Below are positions 2,653-64,000 of a DNA stretch of 64,000 nucleotides, piece by piece (the first letter of the stretch is position 1; each line of letters begins with the position of its first letter). A program made the translations under genes and the position numbers. The notes under the pieces are model-generated. The model saw only the letters and a program-made list of their open reading frames with translations, searched no databases and was not told the DNA's origin. Source of the DNA: an uncultured Acidobacteriia bacterium (GTDB lineage Bacteria; Acidobacteriota; Terriglobia; Bryobacterales; Bryobacteraceae); NCBI GenBank assembly GCA_903875575.1, contig CAIQWJ010000070.1, positions 1 through 64,000 of the forward strand. Reading direction: 5' to 3'.

Positions 2653-5600
2653 TTACCGGGCTAACGCACACGGGGCTCCGGCGTAATTGTGGCCGGGGAG
2701 CAGGTGCTCGTCCTTCATGATGACGCTGTGCGGGGCGACGTGGGCGTTGGCGCCGATATCGGCACCGTAGAGCGGGACGGTGTTTTCGCCGAGCGTTGCT
2801 CCGGGGCCGATGTGGATGCGATCGAGCTTGAGGACGCGGTCTTCGAAGGTGTGGGCCTGGAGGATGCAGGTAACGGTGGCGTCGTCATCGACCTGGAACA
2901 TGTCGGGATCGACGACCTGGGCGAAGCCGGGGCCGAAGATGACTCGTTTGCCGATCTTCGAGCCTGTGGCGCGGAGATAGAAGTTCAGCAGGAGTGTGCC
3001 TTCGAGCGAGACGAGGAAGCCTCGCGTGAAGAAGGCCCAGGCGGTGTAGAGGTAATCCCAGCGGCTGCACCAGCAGGACCAGAGAGCGTGCTGACCGGGG
3101 CGGGCTCGGCCGAGGAGGATCCACTTGAGTGCGAGCACCAGCAGGCAGAGTGACGATGCGGCCGCGAGGGTGGCGGCGGGAACCACTGCGAAGAGGAAGG
3201 TTGTTCGCGTGGTGATCTGTTCTACGTCTGCGAGGAAAGCGTACCAGGCGAGGGCTGTGAGCAGAGGGGGGATGTCCATGGTGAAACGCAGGAGTTCCCA
3301 GAAGATGCGGTTCCAATAGCGAATGAGGGATGGCTTGTGGGTGAGGCTGGGGTCGGCGGTCACGACCTGGCGTTTGGGGAGTTCGAAGGGTGGCTGGCCG
3401 AACCATGAGGTGCCGGGTTGGCGCATGAGGGTGTCGTCAGCAACGGTGCAGACGCCGAGGAGGATGCCCTCCGGGAGATGCTGGCCGGCGGGGATGATGA
3501 CGTGATTGCCAAGGAAGGTGCCGCGGCCGAGGGTGGTGGGTGCGAGTGTGACGGTGCCGCGGTGGAGGCGGGGACTGCCGAGGTAGATGCCATCGGCAAG
3601 GAAGCTATCGGGGCCGAGGGTGATGAGTTCGGGGACGACGTCAATGATGGTGCTGCATTCGCAGCCGGGGGCGAGATTCATGCCGGCGGCGCGGAGCCAG
3701 ACGGCCCAGAGGAGCGTGCCGCTGAGCCAGTCGCCGGCATCGCGCAGAATTTCGGTTTTGAGCCAGACGCGGAGCCAGGCAAGGGACCAGCGGCTGATGA
3801 CGGATTGCTGCGTGTGGTTGTCGAAGCGGGCAATGAAGCGGAGAGTGAGGGCTGCGAGGGCGAGAGAGAGCGGGACGGTGAGCGAGGCCAGGAAGATGGC
3901 GGCATAAGAGTTGGTGAAGTTCCAGGCGAGGCGCGCGGTGAGGCCGGGGATCAGGAGAGGGAGGAGGGCGACTGCGCAATTGGCGAGTAACGTCAGGAAG
4001 CTGTGGGCGGTGGGCGAGAGGGTGCGTTCGTTTGTGGGGAGAGGCGGGGGTTGCGGCGCGAGGCCAGCGGGGCGCGCGGGGATGCCATCCCATTTTTCAT
4101 TGGCGGGAATGGTTTGGCCTTCCGGCAGGTGGGAGAGCGCGGTGAGGTAGGCGCCGGGTTCCAGAGTGGTATGGGGCGAGAGGCCGGCGCGGACGTCGAG
4201 AGTGGCTCCGTCGCCCATGTGGATAGGGCCGATGACGAGATGGCCGGAATCGAATTCGCTGAGGCTGAGGCCGGCGTCCTGGGAGAGAGTGACGTCGTGG
4301 CCGAGATCGAGGAGGTCCCACCCGCCGCGTTCGAGGTTGACGCCGCGATGGATGTGGACGCGATCACCGATGCGTGCACCGAGGGCGCGGAGGATCTGGT
4401 GGTGGAAAACGGTGGCCTGAAGGAGTTGCCAGGGGATGAGGCGGGCGACCTGGAGGACGATCCAGTGGCGAACGTAGAAGTTGCTCCAGACGGGCGTGCG
4501 GAGGGAGCGGTAGCGGCCGATCAGGATGCGTTTGGCCGCGACTGTGGCGGCGACGGCTGCGAGCGTATAGATGACGAAGCCGGCCAGGGCGGCGGGGAGA
4601 GCGAGGAGGATCGCTGCGGTGGTGGAGATACGGGCGAGGAGGTTGGGGAGGGCTTCGCAGAAGACGAGCCAGACGGCGGTGGCTTCGAGGGAGAAGGTTG
4701 TGAGGAGCCAGAGGGATTGGACTGTGGTGGCTGCGAGGTGTCGGCCCTGGCTTGGGGCCGGGGCTGGTGCGGGCGTGTGGGTCGTGGCTGCGAGCCTGGG
4801 ACTGAGGTTGGCGATGGTGCGGGCTTCGTAGATGTCACGGACGGCGATGTGAGTGCCGGGGAAGGTCTTGCGGAGACGAGAGACGAGCTGGGCGGCGCGA
4901 AGGGAATCGCCACCGAGTTCAGCGAAGAAATCGTCATGGATGGAGATGGGCTGGTGGATTTCGAGGATCGCGGCGATGGCTTCGGCGAGGTGGGTTTCGG
5001 TGGCATCGCGCGGCGGAGTGAGGGTGGATGGCGTGTGGGCGGGGGCTTCGAGAAAAGGCAGTGCGGCGTGGTTGAGTTTGCCGCCGGTGGTGGTGGGGAG
5101 TTCGGCGAGCAGGCCGAAGCGCGCCGGGATCATGTAGGCGGGGAAGGCTTCGCTGAGGGACTGGCGGATGGCGTCGAACGACGGGGGAGTTGCGGGGTTG
5201 GCTGGGACGAGGAAGGCGACGAGAGTTTCGCCGTTGCCTTCGCGCTGGAGGTGACACGCTGCACCGCGGACGCCGGGGCAGGCGGCGAGGCGGGCTTCGA
5301 TCTCGCCGAGTTCGACGCGATAGCCGCGGATCTTGATTTGGGAATCGGCGCGGCCGTGATAGTGGAAGTTGCCGGAGGGATCACGATGGACCAGGTCGCC
5401 GGTGCGGTAGAGGCGGCCGAGCGTCGGATGGACCGGGAACTTTTCGGCGGTCAGTTCCGGGCGGTTCCAGTAGCCGAGCGCGAGGCCGACGCCTGAGAGG
5501 CAGAGTTCGCCTTGCTGGTCTGCGGCGACGGGGCAGAGTTCGGAATCGAGAACGTGGGCGATGAGGTTGGCGACGGGTTGGCCGATATGCACGGGAACGC

Positions 5601-18114: not shown

Positions 18115-19254
18115 TTAAACCGAAAGCACCTTAGCGAACGCAAGTTTGAACTTTGCCATTTCGTCGCGAGTGCCGACTGTGACGCGGACGTGTGTGGGCC
18201 AGACCGGCCAGGGACGTCCGATATAGACGTTCTCCCGCTGCATCGCCGAGATCACATCCTGCGTGGGTCTGCCGGTATCGACCATGAAGCAGTTGCTCAC
18301 CGAAGGCACATAGCGCAGATTCTTCTGCCGGAGCCAGGCGAAAACGTCTTCCCTGTTATCGCCAATGATGGCGCGGCGTTCTGCTACCAGGCCCTGTGCC
18401 TGAAGGCTGGCCGCGGCGGCCGCCATTCCCGTGATCGGCAGCATACCGTTATTGCTGAACTTGTCCAATTTCGCAATCAGATCTGGTCTGGCGAGCACGG
18501 CACCGGCCCGCAATCCCGCCATGCCGTAAATCTTCGAAAATGTACGCAGAATGACGATGTCCTTGCCTGCGGCCACCAGCGCGGAATTGAATTGCGGGCT
18601 GGGCGAGATGTGCATGTAGGCTTCGTCCAGCATCAGGATAGACCCCGCCGGTTTGTTGGCGATGAGCCATTCGATATCGGCTTTCGGAGTGACGGTGCCG
18701 GTTGGGTTGTTTGGGTTGCAAATGTAGATGACACCGGAGTTGGGCACGGCGGCCATGGCTTTAACATCGTGCGCGTACGTTTTGGTCAGAGGGATGCGGA
18801 CCACTTTCGCATTGATGGCGTCGGCGGCGGTGGTGCCCGCTTCGTAGCCGGGATCGGCCATGACCAGCGGTTTTGTGGGAGAACAGAACGCGATGACCGT
18901 TTGATGCAGAGGCGCGCTGGAACCGGAGTAGATGCGAACGCGATCGGCCTGGAGACCTTCACTTTCGGACAGCAAATCCCGGACGCGTTCGCCTTCGCTA
19001 AAAAGGTAGCGGCCACCCTGGGTGGCGATGCCGCGAACCGCGTCGATGGCTTCTTTGCAGGGACCGAGAGGGTTCTCATTGGCATTGATCATGACCGCGC
19101 CGATGGGGGCGTTGACGCGCGAGGCCTGGGCCATGGCCATTTCCGATGAAATGGTTAGCGCGGAACCGGCGGTGAGCAGGCTGGCAATTTTTCCGAAGCA
19201 GCGGCGCGAGATGCCGCGCTCCTCGAGATCTGTTTCAACTGGCGATAAGGGCAT
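18115..19254 (-). CDS. Tat-exported PLP aminotransferase, HisC-like
   Basis: The 379-residue protein is a class I/II PLP-dependent aminotransferase related to histidinol-phosphate aminotransferase. NANENPLGPCKEA, YICNPNNPTGTVTP, LDEAYMH and TFSKIYGMAGLRAG are present, with the Schiff-base lysine at about K241. A twin-arginine signal (ISRRCFGKIASLLTAGSAL) precedes an Ala-x-Ala-like cleavage region (AMAQAS). The start at 19254 was chosen because GGAG lies 7 bases upstream; the frame is open to 19404. It is a diverged relative of the three tandem genes at 59-64 kb but lacks their leader. Being exported, it is unlikely to serve histidine synthesis. It is divergent from the transaldolase gene. Confidence 0.82.
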   Translation of the reverse strand: MPLSPVETDLEERGISRRCFGKIASLLTAGSALTISSEMAMAQASRVNAPIGAVMINANENPLGPCKEAIDAVRGIATQGGRYLFSEGERVRDLLSESEGLQADRVRIYSGSSAPLHQTVIAFCSPTKPLVMADPGYEAGTTAADAINAKVVRIPLTKTYAHDVKAMAAVPNSGVIYICNPNNPTGTVTPKADIEWLIANKPAGSILMLDEAYMHISPSPQFNSALVAAGKDIVILRTFSKIYGMAGLRAGAVLARPDLIAKLDKFSNNGMLPITGMAAAAASLQAQGLVAERRAIIGDNREDVFAWLRQKNLRYVPSVSNCFMVDTGRPTQDVISAMQRENVYIGRPWPVWPTHVRVTVGTRDEMAKFKLAFAKVLSV

Positions 19255-26487: not shown

Positions 26488-27828
26488 ATGAGCGCCCTCA
26501 AGGTGCTGACGGTCGGAGTGTATTTCGTGATCGGCCTGCGGGCTGCTGGTTTGCCTGCACCGGATTCGCAGGCGAATGGCGGGCATTCCGCCACATGCGC
26601 GAATCAGCAGAGCGCGGATGCAGCCTTCCGGCAGCGCGCATACACGACAGCCATACAGCTCTATGGGGAGTGCGTCACGACGTCCGGTGATCCGGAGGCG
26701 CGGGTGAACGCCCTCGCGGCCTACGGCATCGCACTGCACCAGGCGGGTCGCGACTCCGAGGCGCGGCCCGCACTGGAGCGCGCGCTGGCGGATTGGCCGC
26801 ACGTGGATCGGTTTGTCGCAGTAACCAGCCGAAGTGCCGTGTCGGGCGTACTAGCGGCGACTTATCGCGGCCTCGGCGATTATCAGAGCGCGGAGCGCGT
26901 TCTGCGCAACGAGATGAAAGACGAATCCGCCAGCGCGGGGAATCGTTCCAGCGTGATGGTGAACCTGGCCGATCTGCTGCGGGAAGAAGCGCGCGAGACC
27001 GAGGCGAGCGGCATTCTCACACAGGCAAGCCGGTTGCCTGGCCTGGCACGGCCGCAACGGCTCGGTATCCTGGTGGAGGCCGCAGAACTGGCTCGTGAAA
27101 TGCGCTTGTGGAACGAAAGCGTAACCCTGTGGAACGAGGTGATGGAAATCGCCCAAAACGAGCATTCGCTGCGGCTGGAAGAAGTGGCCACCGGCGGTCT
27201 GGGGGAGACGTGGTTCGCGGCAGGAGACCTGGCACGGGCCGAACCTCTGATCCGTCGCTCGCTGGGTCTGATTCGGGGCGATGCCGAGACCCGGCCCTCG
27301 CAGCTTGGCACGGCGCTGGCGCTGATGGCTCGCTTGTACCTGGCGGAAAACAAGCTGGCCATGGCGGAAGAGGCGCTGGACGAGGCGATCGCGAAGGATG
27401 GGGCGAGTCTGGGGCCTTCGCATCCGCAGATCGCGGTCCTGCTGGAACTGAGTGCCCTGACGAAGTCCCGGCGGGATGAGGCGCAGGCCGCCCGCGACGA
27501 CCTGGAGCGCGCGCGGACGATCATGAGCAGCCATTTCGGCGCGCGTTCCACGGCAGTGGCCGGAGTGCTCGCCACGCTCGGCGACGTGGAGATGCAGGCA
27601 AATCGTCCGGAAGCCGCCGTGGTGGAGTACGGGATGGCGGTTACGATGCTTCGGGAGACCGGGGCCGACACTCTGCAGTTCTGTTCCGGCGTGGTCGCAA
27701 GGTATGCCAGGGCGCTGAAGGCCACGCATCGCGGCGACGAAGCGAAGGACGTTCTCAGGAGTCTCGCCGCCGCCCGTAAGCCTGGTCTTGCGGTGGTGCC
27801 CGGGGCCGCAAGCTTCCACGAAAAGTGA
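26488..27828 (+). CDS. Secreted TPR-repeat protein
   Basis: The 446-residue protein starts at ATG 26488 after AAGGAG at 26473-26478, and has a signal-like N-terminus (LTVGVYFVIGLRAAGLPAP). The remainder is built of tetratricopeptide repeats, for example FRQRAYTTAIQLYGECV, RVNALAAYGIALHQAGRDSE, LGTALALMARLYLAENKLAM and VAGVLATLGDVEMQANRPEA. Repeats of this kind form protein-binding scaffolds. No catalytic domain is seen. It is followed 18 bp later by aroB on the same strand, although a functional link is not evident. Confidence 0.75.
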   Translation: MSALKVLTVGVYFVIGLRAAGLPAPDSQANGGHSATCANQQSADAAFRQRAYTTAIQLYGECVTTSGDPEARVNALAAYGIALHQAGRDSEARPALERALADWPHVDRFVAVTSRSAVSGVLAATYRGLGDYQSAERVLRNEMKDESASAGNRSSVMVNLADLLREEARETEASGILTQASRLPGLARPQRLGILVEAAELAREMRLWNESVTLWNEVMEIAQNEHSLRLEEVATGGLGETWFAAGDLARAEPLIRRSLGLIRGDAETRPSQLGTALALMARLYLAENKLAMAEEALDEAIAKDGASLGPSHPQIAVLLELSALTKSRRDEAQAARDDLERARTIMSSHFGARSTAVAGVLATLGDVEMQANRPEAAVVEYGMAVTMLRETGADTLQFCSGVVARYARALKATHRGDEAKDVLRSLAAARKPGLAVVPGAASFHEK

Positions 27829-57979: not shown

Positions 57980-59156
57980 GCGCCAGACCCGCGAACGCGA
58001 AGCCTCCGGTCAAGAGCGCCCACGTCGACAGATACTTTCCGTCAATCAGCATCCCGGCGATCAGCGGCGCAATCACCGAGCAAATCGAAGTGATGGACTG
58101 CGTCAGCCCGAGCACCACTCCCTGTTCACGCTTGCCCGCTTTGTGAGAGATCAACGCCGTCAGCGAAGGTCGCAACACGCCCATGCCATACGAATTGATC
58201 GTGCTCGCGCCAAACAGCTGAGGAATCGTGCGCGTCCACGCCAGCAGACCATAGCCAATGCCACCCGCGAGGTAACCCGTGCGAACCAGCGCGCGCTCGC
58301 CAAATCTCTTCACCAGCCGGCCGATCAGCCCACCCTGCAAAATCACGCCCAGCATCCCCACGTACAACAGCACCCACGAAATTTCATGAATACCGACCGC
58401 GTGACCATTCCACTGGTAGCGCTGATTCGCGTAAAGCGCAAACCCGCCAAAGAAGAGCGAAAACGGAAACGCAAAAAAGAAGAACTGCCAGAGTAGAGTT
58501 CCCAGTCCCGGGCGCGCGAAGTACTCGGCGTAGCGGCTCCAGTCGAAAACGCCAAGGCGTTTCCCGGCCGGGCCGGAGGCCTCGTCACCCGCAATCGCGT
58601 GATGCTCCGGCTCCACGAGCAACGTCGCCGTGCAGATCACGCTCAGCGCCGATAGCGCAGCGGCCGCGAAGATCGGATACGTCGCATCGTATTGCGAAAG
58701 GAAACCGGAAATCGCAGGGCCAATCACAAAACCAATCCCGAACGCGATGCCGATCAGCCCGAACGACTTCGCTCGGTTCTCCGGTTCCGTTACGTCGGCG
58801 ATATGCGCCTGCGCCAGCGACAGATTCCCCGCCGTGAGGCCATCAATGATCCGGGCAAGGAAGACCACCCACAGATTTGTGGCGAACGCCAGAATCAGAA
58901 AGCCCACAAACGTCCCAAGTTGGCTGACAATCAGCAGCGGCTTCCGCTTGCCCATGCTGTCCGACCACTTACCAAGAAATGGCCCGGCGATCAGTTGACA
59001 GAACGCGTATGTAGACATCAGCAGGCCGACAACAGTTGCCGACGCGCCGAAATGCACCGCGTAGAACGGCAGCAGGGGAATCATGATCGTCATGCCCAGC
59101 ACATCGACAAGCACGATCAGAAATATAGGTAGAAGGGGGGACCGTTTGGACGCCAA
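57948..59156 (-). CDS. MFS transporter, tetracycline-resistance-like (TCR) group
   Basis: The 402-residue protein has 12 predicted membrane helices and the major-facilitator motif A-like loop FLGKWSDSMGKRKPLL. The first helix is PIFLIVLVDVLGMTIMIPLL. The start is TTG at 59156, with AGGA a few bases upstream; the first ATG lies within helix one. Proteins of this group export drugs or small molecules by proton exchange, with the substrate unknown here. It is divergent from the aminotransferase cluster. Confidence 0.88.
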   Translation of the reverse strand: MASKRSPLLPIFLIVLVDVLGMTIMIPLLPFYAVHFGASATVVGLLMSTYAFCQLIAGPFLGKWSDSMGKRKPLLIVSQLGTFVGFLILAFATNLWVVFLARIIDGLTAGNLSLAQAHIADVTEPENRAKSFGLIGIAFGIGFVIGPAISGFLSQYDATYPIFAAAALSALSVICTATLLVEPEHHAIAGDEASGPAGKRLGVFDWSRYAEYFARPGLGTLLWQFFFFAFPFSLFFGGFALYANQRYQWNGHAVGIHEISWVLLYVGMLGVILQGGLIGRLVKRFGERALVRTGYLAGGIGYGLLAWTRTIPQLFGASTINSYGMGVLRPSLTALISHKAGKREQGVVLGLTQSITSICSVIAPLIAGMLIDGKYLSTWALLTGGFAFAGLALSLTDRGDTA

Positions 59157-59229
59157 ATCATATCCTACCGCGAGGTGCCCTTTCCGCCGTGGAAATCATG
59201 ACCTTTCTGACTTTTTTTGTGTTACACCC

Positions 59230-59258
59230 TTGACATCGGACCGTTCCGGCGTTACCAT
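59230..59258 (+). promoter_or_regulatory. Sigma-70 promoter of aminotransferase gene 1
   Basis: TTGACA (59230-59235), a 17-base spacer and TACCAT (59253-59258). It lies about 200 bases before the start codon, leaving a long leader. Confidence 0.8.
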
Positions 59259-59461
59259 CCCCTCAAGCGATATTATTAGCTGTAGTAATAAAGCTTCAAA
59301 ACGAGACGCCACGATGCGCGTCCGTTCTCTTCAGGGCTCCTGGTCACGCAGCCCGTATTCGTTTGGCGTCGCAAGTCCCCGGCGCTCCCCCTTTCACCCT
59401 TAATAATCCTCAACCGGAGTGGTACCACTCTCGCGTTGATTCCCAGGAGAATACACAATCA
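59259..59461 (+). promoter_or_regulatory. Structured 5' leader, copy 1 (candidate cis-regulatory RNA)
   Basis: The leader between promoter and start codon carries these elements in order. TATTAGCTG (59274-59282). Hairpin P0: GACGC-8 nt-GCGTC (59305-59322). The conserved CGTTCTCTTCAGGGCTC. Hairpin P1: GGGCT/AGCCC (59334-59338/59350-59354). Hairpin P2: GGCGTCG-CAAGTCCC-CGGCGCT (59365-59386). P3: GAGTGGTACCACTC (59417-59430). The ribosome site AGGAGA is at 59445-59450. The same layout recurs upstream of the next two genes with compensatory changes. Confidence 0.72.
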
Positions 59462-60679
59462 ATGTCACTCACCCGGAAAGTACAAGAAGAGTTGCTCGAA
59501 AGAGGATATTCACGCCGTAACGTCGCGCGAATCGCACTGGGAGCGGCTGCTGCCCTTCCTTTCTTCCATGAATTTGCCTTTGCGCCGCATGCGCTGGCGC
59601 AGGATAACCCCGATGCACCCGCGCGCGGCAGAGGCATGCGCCCGGCCTATGATCCCGACGCTGTCGTGATCGGTTCCAACGAAAATCCGATGGGACCCAC
59701 AACTCAGGGTCTCGAAGCAATTTCGAAAGTTTCGCCGCTGGCGTGGCGCTACGGGCCCCAGGGCGATAACAATCTCCTCCAGGGCCTGGTGGAAAGCACC
59801 GAAGGCGTCAAGCCCGGCTATGGCGTGGTGTTCCCCGGTTCCGGTCCCGCTCTCTCCAACCTCATGCCCGCCTTCACCTCTCCCACGCGGAGCTGGGTCA
59901 TGGGCGCGCCCGGCTACGGTCAGGGTGGCGGTCGCGGCATCGGTGCCAAGGTCATCAAAGTGCCGCTGCGCAAGGACTACTCGCACGACGTGGAGGCCAT
60001 GATCAAGGCCGACCCCAACGCCGGCGTCTACTACATCTGCAACCCCAACAATCCGACCGGCACGCTCACGCCGCGCAAGGATATGGAATACATCCTGGCC
60101 AACAAGCCGAAGGATGCGGTCCTCGTGATCGACGAAGCTTACATCCACTTCTCCGGTCGCGACAACATGTCCACGGATCTGGTGGCGAAGGATAAGGACG
60201 TCATCGTCCTCCGCACCTTCTCCAAGATCTACGGCATGGCTGGTCTCCGCGCGGGCATTGTTTACGCCAAGCCGGAATACCAGGCGCAGCTCGCCAAGTT
60301 CGACCGCGGCGGCAATCTCTCCGTCGCCACCATGGCCTGCGCCGCCGCCAGCCTGAAGGCCAGCGCCACGGTCATCCCGGAAAGAGTTGCGGTTTACCAA
60401 AAGAATCGCGCACTCGCCTATGACCAGATGGCCAAACTGGGCGTCAGCTATATTCCGACTGTGGGCAACTTCTTCATGATGTCCGTGAAGGGCATGACTG
60501 CGGCACAGGTAGGCAACGCCATGGCGGCCAAGAAGGTTCACCTTGCCGGAGCCAACCGGTGGCCGGAATGGCCGAACCACATCCGCGTCACCGTGGGCAG
60601 CTTCGACGAAATGACGAAGTTCAACGCGGCACTGGCTCAGGTAGTGAAAGAGGGGCCACCCTCTGTCGCCAAGGGCTAG
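59462..60679 (+). CDS. Tat-exported PLP aminotransferase, HisC-like, gene 1
   Basis: The 405-residue protein begins with a twin-arginine signal (RGYSRRNVARIALGAAAALP; cleavage region ALAQDN), followed by an arginine-rich linker (RGRGM) and an aminotransferase class I/II domain. SNENPMGPTTQG, YICNPNNPTGTLTPR, VIDEAYIHFSG and TFSKIYGMAGLRAG are conserved; the Schiff-base lysine is K255. The PLP domain resembles histidinol-phosphate aminotransferase, but export makes a role in histidine synthesis unlikely. Tat export fits a cofactor-loaded enzyme. It is first of three tandem paralogues and has its own promoter, leader and terminator. Confidence 0.85.
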   Translation: MSLTRKVQEELLERGYSRRNVARIALGAAAALPFFHEFAFAPHALAQDNPDAPARGRGMRPAYDPDAVVIGSNENPMGPTTQGLEAISKVSPLAWRYGPQGDNNLLQGLVESTEGVKPGYGVVFPGSGPALSNLMPAFTSPTRSWVMGAPGYGQGGGRGIGAKVIKVPLRKDYSHDVEAMIKADPNAGVYYICNPNNPTGTLTPRKDMEYILANKPKDAVLVIDEAYIHFSGRDNMSTDLVAKDKDVIVLRTFSKIYGMAGLRAGIVYAKPEYQAQLAKFDRGGNLSVATMACAAASLKASATVIPERVAVYQKNRALAYDQMAKLGVSYIPTVGNFFMMSVKGMTAAQVGNAMAAKKVHLAGANRWPEWPNHIRVTVGSFDEMTKFNAALAQVVKEGPPSVAKG

Positions 60680-60709
60680 TTACTAAATTTTTCTTGTAGT
60701 TTACTCCAG

Positions 60710-60749
60710 CCGGGAAACGCATTATTCATGCGTTTCCTGGCATTTTTTT
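60710..60749 (+). terminator. Intrinsic terminator after aminotransferase gene 1
   Basis: A 13-bp stem with one G-T pair (60710-60722 with 60728-60740), core GGAAACGCAT/ATGCGTTTCC, has a five-base loop and is followed by CA and seven T. It is a classical intrinsic terminator. Confidence 0.9.
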
Positions 60750-60812
60750 GCGCCAGAAACTCAATTATGACCGAACCAGTGCCTGCGCAAAAAACGTTTC
60801 ATTGATATTTGC

Positions 60813-60841
60813 TTGACACCAGTAACCTGGAGGGCTATCAT
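60813..60841 (+). promoter_or_regulatory. Sigma-70 promoter of aminotransferase gene 2
   Basis: TTGACA (60813-60818), a 17-base spacer and TATCAT (60836-60841), preceded by AT-rich DNA. It is the best promoter in the window by eye. Confidence 0.85.
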
Positions 60842-61050
60842 TCGGTCTAGTAGTATTAGCTGGTATTATAAAGTCACTGGCATTCTTACAGTAGAATCAA
60901 CGCGTCGCCACGCCGCGCGACACGTTCTCCCTGAGCTCCTGGTTGGCAGCTCTTGTCCTTTTGGCGTCACATGTTCCTGACGCCCACACCTCAGCCCAAA
61001 CACCAAACGGACTTAGTCGGGAGTGTTTTATCACTCCGGGAGATACATAT
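60842..61050 (+). promoter_or_regulatory. Structured 5' leader, copy 2 (candidate cis-regulatory RNA)
   Basis: It has the same order as copy 1. TATTAGCTG (60854-60862). P0: GTCGC-CACGCCGC-GCGAC (60904-60921). CGTTCTCCCTGAGCTC. P1: GAGCT/AGCTC (60933-60937/60948-60952). P2: GGCGTCA-CATGTTCC-TGACGCC (60963-60984). P3: GGAGTG-TTTTAT-CACTCC (61020-61037). GGGAG, the ribosome site, is at 61038-61042 immediately after P3. Compared with copy 1 the stems differ in sequence but remain paired. Confidence 0.72.
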
Positions 61051-62256
61051 ATGGCGCTCAAGCCCAAACTCACAGAATCGTTACTTGAACGAGGTTACTC
61101 TCGTCGCCAGATCGCGAAGATCGCCATGGGGGCCGGTGCCGCCATTCCCTTCTTCAATGAATTCGCGCTCGCGCAGCAGGCAGTGGACGCTCAGGCCGGC
61201 GGACGTGGGGGCCGAGGCGGTGGTGGCCGCGGTGTTTACGATCCCGAAATGGTCGTCATCACCTCGAACGAAAACCCGATGGGCCCCTGTAAGGAAGGTG
61301 TGGAAGCCCTCATTAAGGTCGCTCCGCTCGGCTGGCGCTACTCCCCTCAGGGCGATAACCTCGAATTCAATTCCCTTCTGGCCAGCACGGAAAACGTTCC
61401 TCAGGATCATGTGACGGCGTATCCTGGTTCGAGCATTCCACTCGCCAATGCAGTGCCCGCTTTCACCTCTCCCACACGAAGCTGGGTGATGGGTGCTCCC
61501 GGTTACGGCAACCACGCCAACAAGTGGCTCGGAAACAAGGCTCATACCGTGCCTCTCCGCAAGGACTATTCGCACGACGTGGAAGCCATGATCAAGGCCG
61601 ACCCCAACGCCGGGGCTTACTACATCTGCAATCCGAACAACCCGACCGGCACACTTACGCCGCGCAAGGATTTCGAATACATCCTCGCCAATAAGGCCAA
61701 GGACGCAGTTCTCATCATTGACGAAGCCTATGTCCACTTCTCCGGTCAGGAGAATATGTCCACCGATCTCGTGAAAGCCGGCAAGGACGTCGTCGTCCTC
61801 CGCACTTTCTCCAAGATCTACGGCATGGCCGGTCTCCGCGCCGGTGCGGCTTACGGACGTCCCGACCTGCTGGCAAAAATCAGCCAGTACGGCGGAACAG
61901 GCTTCATGCCCGTCACCGCGACGGCCTGCGCTGCCGCCAGCATGAAGGTCGGACCGAGCCTGATGAAGGAACGCCTCGAAATCAACAAAAAGAACCGCGA
62001 TCTGGCCTTTGAATTCCTCCAGAAGAAAGGCGTCCGCTACATTAACTCCGGCACCAACTTCTTCATGATGGAAGTCAAAGGCATGACTGGTGCGCAGGTT
62101 GGCACCGCCATGCGGGCGAAGAAGGTCCAGATCGGCCGCGTGTGGCAGGAATGGCCGGAAATGGTTCGCGTGACCGTCGGGACGTGGGACGAAATGACCA
62201 AGTTCAACGCGGCTCTCGACGCGGTGATCAAGGAAGGCCCGCCTAAGGTGGGCTAG
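61051..62256 (+). CDS. Tat-exported PLP aminotransferase, HisC-like, gene 2
   Basis: The 401-residue protein has the twin-arginine signal RGYSRRQIAKIAMGAGAAIP with cleavage region ALAQQA, then a Gly/Arg linker (GGRGGRGGGGRG) and the aminotransferase domain with the same motifs as gene 1 (SNENPMGPCKEG, YICNPNNPTGTLTPR, IDEAYVHFSG, TFSKIYGMAGLRAG; lysine K255). Long stretches agree with genes 1 and 3 at both DNA and protein level, pointing to tandem duplication. It starts at ATG 61051 after GGGAG. The extracytoplasmic substrate is not known. Confidence 0.85.
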   Translation: MALKPKLTESLLERGYSRRQIAKIAMGAGAAIPFFNEFALAQQAVDAQAGGRGGRGGGGRGVYDPEMVVITSNENPMGPCKEGVEALIKVAPLGWRYSPQGDNLEFNSLLASTENVPQDHVTAYPGSSIPLANAVPAFTSPTRSWVMGAPGYGNHANKWLGNKAHTVPLRKDYSHDVEAMIKADPNAGAYYICNPNNPTGTLTPRKDFEYILANKAKDAVLIIDEAYVHFSGQENMSTDLVKAGKDVVVLRTFSKIYGMAGLRAGAAYGRPDLLAKISQYGGTGFMPVTATACAAASMKVGPSLMKERLEINKKNRDLAFEFLQKKGVRYINSGTNFFMMEVKGMTGAQVGTAMRAKKVQIGRVWQEWPEMVRVTVGTWDEMTKFNAALDAVIKEGPPKVG

Positions 62257-62278
62257 TCCGCACAAGTTACTTTCAAAC

Positions 62279-62313
62279 GCCCAGGGTTCGCGGCCTTCGC
62301 GCGAGCTCTGGGC
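62279..62313 (+). terminator. Terminator-like hairpin after aminotransferase gene 2
   Basis: A 14-bp stem including two G-T pairs (62279-62292 with 62300-62313) has a seven-base loop. Only ATTT follows, so termination may be weak. Gene 3 could be partly served by read-through from gene 2. Confidence 0.6.
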
Positions 62314-62502
62314 ATTTGGACGTTTGCTGTACCGTTTGAAACGGCCCGCCCTGCCAGCGTTCCGTTCTCTCCAGGGCTCTTCGTCCGAAGCCCTTTAGTT
62401 TGGCGCCGCAAGTCCACGGCGCTTCACCGTCAACCATCCTAACCGGATTCTGACCGGAGTGGTACCACTCACCGTCAGTCAAATCAGGAGATATCGAATC
62501 AA
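62314..62502 (+). promoter_or_regulatory. Structured 5' leader, copy 3 (candidate cis-regulatory RNA)
   Basis: It carries CGTTCTCTCCAGGGCTC, P1: AGGGCT/AGCCCT (62373-62378/62389-62394), P2: GGCGCCG-CAAGTCCA-CGGCGCT (62402-62423), and P3: GAGTGGTACCACTC (62457-62470), then AGGAG at 62486-62490 before the ATG. P0 is not evident; a palindrome CCGTTTGAAACGG (62332-62344) lies in its place. No clear TTGACA-type promoter is seen upstream, unlike copies 1, 2 and 4. Confidence 0.68.
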
Positions 62503-63771
62503 ATGGCGCTTACACCTAAGCTCATAAACGAACTTACAGACAGAGGTTACTCCCGCCGGCAAATCGCCCGCGTGGCGATGGGAGCGGCGGCGGCCGTTCC
62601 GTTCTTCAGCGAATTCGCCCAGGCGCAGCAGTCGGAAGATGAAGCCAACGGCGTCGTGCGCGGCGGCGGTCGCGGCGGCGGACGTGGCGGCAGCGGCGGT
62701 GGTCGCGGCGGCGGCGGTTTCGGCGGTGGCGGCGGACGTGGAGCCTATGATCCGGAACGCGTGGTGATTTCCTCCAACGAAAATCCCATGGGCCCCAGCA
62801 AAGAAGGTCTCGAAGCCCTCATGAAGGTTGCGCCGCTCGGCTGGCGCTACAACCCGCAGGGCGAAAATCTGGACTTCCAGGCGCAGTTACTCGCCTCCGA
62901 AAACGTCAAGCAGGGTTATGCCATCGCCTACCCAGGCTCCAGCATTCCGCTCGCCAACGCTTTCCCCGCTTTCACTTCGCCCACTCGCCCATGGGTGATG
63001 GGTAACCCCGGTTACGGCGGCGGTGGCGGTCGCTGGGTAGGCAATAAGGTGCTCCAGGTTCCGCTGCGTAAAGACTACTCGCACGACGTGGAAGCGATGA
63101 TCAAGGCCGACCCCAACGCCGGCGCTTTCTACATCTGCAACCCCAACAATCCGACCGCCACGCTGACGCCGCGGAAGGACCTCGAATACATCCTGGCCAA
63201 CAAGCCAAAGGATGCGGTTCTCATTGTTGACGAAGCCTATGTCCACTTCGCCGGCGAAGAGAACTACTCCACGGAACTCGTGAGACAGGATAAGGACGTC
63301 GTCGTCCTCCGCACCTTCTCGAAGATCTACGGCATGGCCGGAATCCGCTGCGGCGCAACTTTCGGCCGCCCGGACCTGCTCCAGAAGATTTCTCAGTATG
63401 GCGGCACCGGCATGTTGCCCGTCACGGCAACCGCCTGCGCTTCCGCCAGCATGAAGGCCAATCCGGGCCTGCTCAAGGAACGCCTCGCCATCAACAAAAA
63501 GAATCGCGAGTACGCCATGGAAAAGATGGATAAGCTCGGCGTGACTTACATTCCCTCTGTCGGCAACTTCTTCATGATGTCGGTGAAGGGAATGACCGGC
63601 GCACAGGTCGGCACAGCTATGGCTGCGAAGAAGATCCAGCTCGCCGGTGCCACCCGCTGGCCGTCGATGCCGCAACACATTCGCGTCACCGTGGGAACCT
63701 GGGATGAAATGACCAAGTTCAATGCGACGCTCGAACAGGTCGTTAAGGAAGGCCCGCCGAAAGCAGGCTAA
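62503..63771 (+). CDS. Tat-exported PLP aminotransferase, HisC-like, gene 3
   Basis: The 422-residue protein has the twin-arginine signal RGYSRRQIARVAMGAAAAVP, cleavage region AQAQQS, and a long Gly/Arg repeat linker (about residues 50-80) of RGG type, longer than in genes 1 and 2. The aminotransferase domain is complete (SNENPMGPSKEG, YICNPNNPTATLTPR, VDEAYVHFAG, TFSKIYGMAGIRCG; lysine K274). AGGAG at 62486-62490 precedes the ATG. It is the third tandem paralogue; a fourth transcription unit of the same design begins after it. Confidence 0.85.
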   Translation: MALTPKLINELTDRGYSRRQIARVAMGAAAAVPFFSEFAQAQQSEDEANGVVRGGGRGGGRGGSGGGRGGGGFGGGGGRGAYDPERVVISSNENPMGPSKEGLEALMKVAPLGWRYNPQGENLDFQAQLLASENVKQGYAIAYPGSSIPLANAFPAFTSPTRPWVMGNPGYGGGGGRWVGNKVLQVPLRKDYSHDVEAMIKADPNAGAFYICNPNNPTATLTPRKDLEYILANKPKDAVLIVDEAYVHFAGEENYSTELVRQDKDVVVLRTFSKIYGMAGIRCGATFGRPDLLQKISQYGGTGMLPVTATACASASMKANPGLLKERLAINKKNREYAMEKMDKLGVTYIPSVGNFFMMSVKGMTGAQVGTAMAAKKIQLAGATRWPSMPQHIRVTVGTWDEMTKFNATLEQVVKEGPPKAG

Positions 63772-63803
63772 AACCTGCGTTCTCACCATTCCCTGCTGTA
63801 ACC

Positions 63804-63855
63804 GAATGCCCTGTATATGCGCCTTTTGCATATACAGGGCATTCATTATTTTGTC
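63804..63855 (+). terminator. Intrinsic terminator after aminotransferase gene 3
   Basis: A perfect 17-bp stem (GAATGCCCTGTATATGC at 63804-63820 with its complement at 63828-63844) has a seven-base loop, followed by ATTATTTTG. The T-run is interrupted but the stem is very strong. Confidence 0.8.
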
Positions 63856-63901
63856 TCCACATTCCGCCCTGCATTTTATCCGCCAATGCGTCCAAAGTCC
63901 G

Positions 63902-63931
63902 TTGACAAATATATAGATTGTTAGGTAACAT
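63902..63931 (+). promoter_or_regulatory. Sigma-70 promoter of a fourth unit
   Basis: TTGACA (63902-63907), an 18-base AT-rich spacer and TAACAT (63926-63931). The unit it drives lies mostly beyond the window. Confidence 0.75.
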
Positions 63932-64000
63932 TTATATATTCAGTTTGGAGACACGCCTCGCCGCGATCGTCTTCTTTCCTTAAGCTCTACGCCCCGAGCT
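63932..64000 (+). promoter_or_regulatory. Structured 5' leader, copy 4, cut by the window end
   Basis: The end of the window has ACGCCTCGCCGCGATCGTC and then P1: AGCTC-TACGCCCC-GAGCT (63983-63987/63996-64000) after CTTCTTTCCTTA, in the place of the other leaders' CGTTCTC block. P2 and the gene would lie outside. A fourth paralogous aminotransferase is therefore expected, but this is not visible. Confidence 0.6.

Follow-up and report, generated by a model that had tools for sequence, protein, structure and literature searches.

A candidate cis-regulatory leader RNA upstream of Tat-exported aminotransferase genes in Bryobacteraceae

Why should three neighbouring genes for exported aminotransferases, in the genome of an uncultured Acidobacteriia bacterium of the Bryobacteraceae, each be preceded by a leader with the same hairpins in the same order? 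The stretch of DNA analysed here (the window) comprises bases 1-64,000 of contig CAIQWJ010000070.1 (C70; 95,867 bases), part of a 5.98 Mb assembly in 110 contigs (GCA_903875575.1). Its leaders at 59300-59461, 60899-61050 and 62340-62502, each of which precedes an aminotransferase gene of the twin-arginine (Tat) exported type, have in common three hairpins (P0, P1 and P2) and, next to the ribosome site, a palindrome (P3). We think it reasonably probable that they are cis-acting leaders of a unit formed by a TonB receptor and a periplasmic transaminase, each controlling its own mRNA mainly at the level of translation. The fold is well supported, and the mechanism moderately so.

All the features lie on the forward strand. 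In leader 1, P0 (59300-59326), P1 (59334-59354, with the loop CCUGGUC) and P2 (59365-59386) were recognised in the sequence, by a covariance model and in the alignment, and are followed by P3 (59416-59431) and the Shine-Dalgarno GGAG (59446-59449), both found in the sequence. The hairpins of leader 2, at 60899-60926, 60933-60952 and 60963-60984, were recovered by these three approaches and also by folding, and its P3 (61020-61037) abuts the Shine-Dalgarno GGGAG at 61038-61042. In leader 3, P0 (62340-62366; sequence, model and folding) is imperfect, P1 (62373-62394) and P2 (62402-62423) have the same fourfold support as in leader 2, and P3 is seen in the sequence at 62457-62470. The P1 and P2 arms reported for these three copies in a first-pass annotation are present, as is the palindrome before the ribosome site; the P0 arms are present too, but they are longer than reported, with AACG..CGTT pairs outside GACGC/GCGTC. 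That the leader could be a coding extension of the gene, as the in-frame open reading frames starting with TTG in copies 1 and 2 might suggest, was rejected because the distances from P2 to the ATG (75, 66 and 79 bases) differ by numbers that are not multiples of three and because a ribosome site stands before the ATG.

The hairpins are maintained as pairings while their sequences change. Counts were made on the 14 aminotransferase leaders that we call group A, in a 14-row alignment made by the model (A6), and not on a 17-row alignment (A5) with two weak, correctly placed rows (L084 and L090) and one chance row. In A6, 90.2% of 266 cells were paired, compared with 81.8% after shuffling and at most 43.6% after sliding (P2 97.6%, P1 94.3%, P0 82.1%), and both sides had changed in 9 pairs, amounting to 22 cells. 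The covariation score of 0.335, against 0.173 for shuffled alignments, was equalled in none of 500 shuffles, and sliding gave at most 0.152. We also applied a tree-aware test of our own making, similar to R-scape, that uses a G statistic with average-product correction and a null in which substitutions are moved along the tree. The P0 pair 6-23 and the P2 pair 77-88, the two top-scoring of all column pairs in the alignment, were significant at E<0.05, and the outer P1 pair 39-59 reached 0.067. The earlier proposal that base-pair swaps among the copies reflect RNA structure is thus supported, with covariation above every shuffle and slide and a weaker signal in the tree-aware test. P3 could be read in 13 of the 14 group-A leaders (it is absent from L020) and coincided with the best inverted repeat found by a script in 10 of 14; it has changed and yet still pairs, for example as GAAGTG/CACTTC and GGGGCG/CGCCCC. 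When single sequences were folded, only 3 (copy 2) and 7 (copy 3) of 200 shuffles did as well. Conserved secondary structure with compensatory changes, one mark of a cis-regulatory leader RNA, is therefore found here, and P0, P1 and P2 are very probably conserved as base-paired hairpins of a folded RNA element.

How widely the element occurs was addressed with two covariance models, R1 built from 10 leaders and R2 from 15 sequences. An initial search had yielded 19 related loci, most of them in Bryobacterales or Acidobacteriia, and the aminotransferase protein is matched in 137 of 237 genomes of the family (E<=1e-60). R1 recovered four aminotransferase leaders outside its training set (L016:1388, L019:1155, L082 and L083; 61-84 bits), and over the 237 genomes it detected 15 elements at E<=1e-5, distributed over 10 genomes and 3 of 76 genera; R2 detected the same 15 at E<=0.001. 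The resemblance therefore exceeds chance, R1 having found these four leaders and a fifth before another gene, described next. The matches are not confined to duplicates of this locus, and 14 of them precede aminotransferase matches at close range; the first-pass annotation had proposed both points as checks. The remaining element (G180:C382:16956-17039, minus strand, 55 bits; L289, L293) shows the full P0-P1-P2 set, with a TATAAT box directly upstream of it in the sequence, before a gene for a 521-residue protein that is unrelated to the aminotransferase and matches no Pfam or NCBIfam family. This protein is probably exported, judging from its signal-like start. The element can therefore stand before a gene other than the aminotransferase. 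When 299 genomes sampled from the class were searched, 8 of the same 15 matches came back, in 5 genomes, and no element outside the family; because only so many candidates are scored in each genome, these searches may miss weak members. Weaker R1 matches in the same genome (three, E 0.055-0.63) and in relatives (five, E 0.001-0.01) were taken as chance on reading, two such matches (L038 and L043) lying upstream of an open reading frame without a recognisable promoter, and a match at 26887-26947 of the window (minus strand, E 0.0064) was rejected as antisense within an open reading frame.

The full P0-P1-P2 set was not found in the leaders of remoter homologues, part of which hold a small hairpin of the form N-CTC-C..GT..-GAG-N (CUC-C..GU..-GAG in the RNA). 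Outside group A, its strict form was present in 15 of 51 leaders of a first batch and 13 of 37 of a second, as opposed to none of 123 control genes, a set that excludes every locus fetched by the pattern (Fisher P 2e-9 and 8e-10, uncorrected for kinship). The hypothesis was written before the second batch was fetched, and the strict pattern was fixed after that batch had been read. A looser scan found the hairpin in 36 of 102 homologue leaders, whereas 20 shuffles averaged about 8; leaders identical over their last 100 bases had been merged before this count, and homologues with a signal outside the regular expression were missed. An earlier control set had the strict form in 2 of 130 leaders, both in loci fetched by that pattern, and the loose form in 10 of 130, against the 36 of 102 homologues. 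The outer pair, which the pattern does not demand, was formed in 29 of 33 occurrences (G-C 13, T-A 9, A-T 6, C-G 1), whereas permutation gave a mean of 13.6 and never as many in 5000 trials. Among the 102 leaders the small hairpin was in sense in 28 and antisense in 2, and of 42 leaders, 20 had a promoter match upstream of P1 (13 of the 14 in group A and 7 of the 28 others) and none had one downstream, promoters here being consensus matches rather than mapped starts. The leader element is thus found in the sense orientation and at a fixed position, after the promoter and before the start codon. Thirty-one leaders contained the small hairpin, of which 29 entered the pairing analysis below (L117 and L016:3001 were left out); a MAFFT alignment of 26 of these 29 distant leaders (A4) misaligned the short loops and was not counted.

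The group-A form of P1, GGCT-CCYGGTCNGC-AGCC, is one base out of register, so that the strict pattern is met in 0 of 14 leaders. An intermediate, L084, reads GGCTC-CTGGACAA-GAGCC and reaches no better than E 0.03-0.04 with R1. From the loop, the place and this intermediate we infer that the group-A P1 and the small hairpin are the same hairpin. In L123 (575-616), two copies of the small hairpin follow each other, GCTC-CTTGTTCT-GAGC and GCTC-CTGGTACT-GAGC. A genome-wide regulon was also considered and was rejected, as neither of two pattern scans gave a sign of it. The pattern CTCCNNGTN{2,4}GAG occurred at 4247 places in 31 genomes, without excess over the 4244 of its control, although it demands no outer pair and would leave a regulon of few genes invisible. 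The pattern CTCCCAGTCGAG showed a mild excess in 61 genomes (85 places versus 54 for the reversed control); among the 30 of these 85 places that were read, a simple regular expression found no upstream promoter match, and the coordinates of two unread ones, G030:C426 and G059:C109, identify them as the leaders L026 and L025.

What lies downstream of the aminotransferases suggests the physiological context. The first-pass annotation had counted four copies of the element before exported aminotransferases, which is correct for copies 1 to 3. The supposed fourth copy (63902-64000, forward strand) comprises a promoter match and the first part of the leader that precedes a TonB-receptor-like gene, and was rejected as a member of the element, with no covariance-model match at E<=1 in that region (L014). 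Its hairpin AGCTC-TACGCCCC-GAGCT is indeed present at 63983-64000, but a promoter box and a CTC/GAG hairpin are all that it has in common with the element, and if the loop is left free, 21 of 123 control leaders also contain a CTC..GAG hairpin. The gene that it leads begins with an ATG at G000:C70:64191, beyond the window, and codes for a 1147-residue outer-membrane barrel with a CarboxypepD_reg domain, which from this make-up we take to be TonB-receptor-like. A second receptor-like gene, 66% identical to the first, starts at C70:68290, and the leaders of both are without a covariance-model match. The three aminotransferases are thus followed by two receptor-like genes (C70:64191-71697), whose leaders have stretches in common such as GATGTGCATTGTGCGCACCCGGA / GACGTGCATTGTCCGCACCCGGA that were not noticed in the aminotransferase leaders.

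In several relatives the aminotransferase gene could be read directly after a TonB-receptor-like gene. Both receptors adjoining the window belong to a subfamily that separates clearly by score, with complete matches at 966-1703 bits and 46-66% identity and the next at about 650 bits and 38%. Thirty receptor loci were fetched, and 11 of the 24 with a start found have an aminotransferase motif in the downstream flank; in G059 and G049 the aminotransferase lies upstream of the receptor. The strict small hairpin was present in 3 of 18 leaders of receptor-headed operons and in none of the 123 controls (P 0.0018), with a looser GT form occurring in 10 of these 18 leaders and in 5 of the 123 controls; these operon heads were fetched after the strict pattern had been fixed, and the looser form was set after part of their leaders had been seen. 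The 18 heads derive from 11 of 14 regions of one set (L214, L219 and L220 had no usable leader) and from 7 of 11 partner-gene loci, from which 3 duplicates and one truncated locus had been dropped, and some are closely related (L208, L217 and L218 come from one genus). Among receptor-like genes of the window's own genome (22 matches, for which 15 starts were picked, some of them doubtful), no strict hairpin was found in the 15 leaders, and a single loose CTT/AAG match appeared, in L198. The occurrence of the receptor subfamily (L207-L218, L221-L236) beside Tat aminotransferases in several genera suggests a joint uptake-and-modification unit.

How might such a leader work? Each would control the mRNA to which it belongs, as a structured 5' untranslated region situated between the promoter match and the start codon in transcription units of a periplasmic transaminase similar to PtaA. 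P1 contains CUCC, complementary to the Shine-Dalgarno GGAG, and together with P3 against the site this could allow the leader to hide or expose it, while P0 and P2 would tip the balance between folds according to a signal, be it a metabolite, a protein or a condition. In copies 1 and 2, seven bases of P1 match the ribosome site. The Shine-Dalgarno site is predicted to be less open than in controls, with a median unpaired value of 0.11 in the 14 group-A leaders (P 0.005) and 0.14 in the 29 distant ones (P 0.001) versus 0.29 in 123 controls. An alternative pairing of P1 with P3, judged by eye, was rejected since it fails in copy a of L019. It is likely that the leader is cis-regulatory; that it acts by hiding the Shine-Dalgarno site is a tentative proposal, to which we would give not quite even weight.

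Several observations weigh against this interpretation. The 56 homologues without the hairpin are also somewhat closed at the ribosome site (median 0.25, P 0.026), and the control open reading frames in this comparison were called mechanically. P1 paired with its own site scarcely better than with the sites of other leaders: for the energy, P was 0.045 for the 29 distant leaders, 0.48 for the 14 of group A and 0.027 for the 43 together, and for the longest run of matches it was 0.25, 0.77 and 0.38, respectively, kinship being uncorrected in these statistics; in the folding ensemble, in which pseudoknots cannot be scored, P1-site pairing was at most 0.02 in 13 of the 14 group-A leaders and at least 0.2 in one of these and in 11 of 28 distant leaders. 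Strict small hairpins are missing from 60 of 88 leaders outside group A, partly because some of these genes sit inside operons, and from 15 of the 18 TonB heads. As for the fold itself, A6 is the model's own product and hence biased towards the structure, and a first MAFFT alignment of 10 leaders gave weaker figures (79.1% paired; covariation 0.209, reached by 2 of 500 shuffles, versus 0.146). In the tree-aware test only 2 of 19 pairs are significant, and copy 1 folds no better than shuffled sequences, 57 of 200 of which did as well.

Other explanations of the leaders can be weighed against these data. The hairpins could be structural and constitutive, stabilising the mRNA or forming a ribosome stand-by site and sensing nothing, which we consider unlikely. 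No sign was seen of switching, or of a ligand such as the amino acid, pyridoxal 5'-phosphate (PLP) or enzyme metabolite suggested in the first-pass annotation. The hairpins could simply be stable, and the position of P3 beside the ribosome site would suit a stand-by site; however, the P1 loop CC-N-GU and the pairing around it have been kept in otherwise diverged leaders, beyond what stability would need. Conversely, the leaders could represent a new riboswitch class, with P0-P1-P2 as the aptamer, P3 and the ribosome site as the platform, and the small CUC-C-N-GU-GAG hairpin as an ancient core, that would sense something handled by receptor and transaminase together, for instance PLP, a peptide compound or one akin to a siderophore. 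We give this more specific idea a rather low probability. As to whether one aptamer serves several genes of a pathway, 14 of the 15 elements precede one gene family and one precedes an unrelated gene, with the small hairpin before some TonB genes. It is improbable that a transcription factor uses P1 and the other dyads as operators at the DNA level. In the distant set P1 does amount to a short CTC..GAG dyad near the promoter, but its loop varies in length from 6 to 10, its strong sense bias and invariable position downstream of the promoter match, where one was found, are not those of an operator, and compensatory changes are seen in P0 and P2, which form long hairpins.

The fact that the downstream genes are aminotransferases calls to mind a transcription attenuator, a peptide attenuator or a T-box, in which a signal would decide on early termination. 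Among the terminator-like sites is P0 of leader 1, which has the weak tail CGTTCTCTTC, and a TTCTC-like tail can be read after P0 in most group-A leaders. Nevertheless, no Rfam family matched, the T-box included, the region has 3 terminator-like sites against a shuffle mean of 5.5, none besides that P0 lies inside the leaders and none at all between P2 and the start codon, and leaders 1 and 2 have no open reading frame of at least 20 amino acids in common, all of which makes termination control very unlikely. It is equally hard to believe that there is no regulatory RNA at all, the resemblance being due to the ancestry of duplicated genes and the covariation to chance in GC-rich sequence. Gene 3 shares 66% identity with gene 1 and 74% with gene 2, and few pairs are significant once the tree is taken into account, but the leaders are conserved over 3 genera, the two best covarying column pairs both fall inside the structure, and the full element stands before the unrelated gene of G180. 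We therefore return to a leader that controls its own mRNA as the preferred reading.

Acidobacteriota are abundant in soil, and to our knowledge few control RNAs specific to them have been described. The riboswitches SAM-II and preQ1-II control translation by hiding the Shine-Dalgarno sequence and combine a structured 5' leader, a conserved loop, a ribosome site in or beside the fold and a narrow set of genes. The leader element resembles them in all these traits, but it has no Rfam match and sequestration by P1 is only predicted. No match at gathering score was obtained with the 4227 families of Rfam 15 over the window or 10 loci, in agreement with the first-pass annotation, which had recognised no known riboswitch or T-box; at E<=5, the region 59150-64000 gave only two matches, both far below their gathering scores. 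In those parts of the literature on Bryobacterales and Solibacter riboswitches and on anti-Shine-Dalgarno leaders that we consulted, no description of the element was found. Within the reach of these searches, the element forms a new family, of a kind already known, and is probably an undescribed RNA control element, so that its designation as a candidate new cis-regulatory RNA stands. From the same bacterial group, the Solibacter-1 motif is a candidate structured RNA of Solibacter usitatus that appears without an Rfam number in a survey table, where it is listed as '?' for RNA and 'n' for cis-regulatory (Weinberg 2010, PMC2864571); our comparison with it is confined to that table row. If our reading is correct, the leader would be a testable RNA linking outer-membrane uptake with an exported transaminase, and could help to find the substrate of that enzyme.

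The three aminotransferases themselves (59462-60679, 405 residues; 61051-62256, 401; 62503-63771, 422) carry a twin-arginine signal, SRRxxx, at their N-terminus. PF00155, the Pfam family of class I/II aminotransferases, was found in both of the proteins scanned. The top NCBIfam match of all three is NF006580, with PtaA (NF051461) second and every score under the cut-off. Periplasmic transaminase A, PtaA, is likewise a Tat-exported PLP transaminase (PMC6206403), but the scores of the window enzymes (269.2, 312.5 and 271.0 bits, against a cut-off of 500) point to family resemblance only, and, unlike what we find here, the portions of that paper available to us mention no leader RNA. Consensus promoter matches lie before leader 1 (TTGACA-17-TACCAT, 59230-59258) and leader 2 (TTGACA-17-TATCAT, 60813-60841), whereas no TTGACA-17-TAYCAT match was found upstream of leader 3, which may be transcribed from upstream or via a weaker promoter. 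Terminator-like hairpins, also consensus matches only, follow aminotransferase 1 (60709-60741) and aminotransferase 3 (63804-63844). The window encodes one more Tat aminotransferase of this family, the fourth, at 18115-19254 on the minus strand; it scores above the NF006580 cut-off, and its leader has no model match. In aminotransferase 3, signal and enzyme are separated by a stretch rich in glycine and arginine (GGGRGGGRGGSGGGRGGGG; 62640-62760), of which gene 2 encodes a shorter version.

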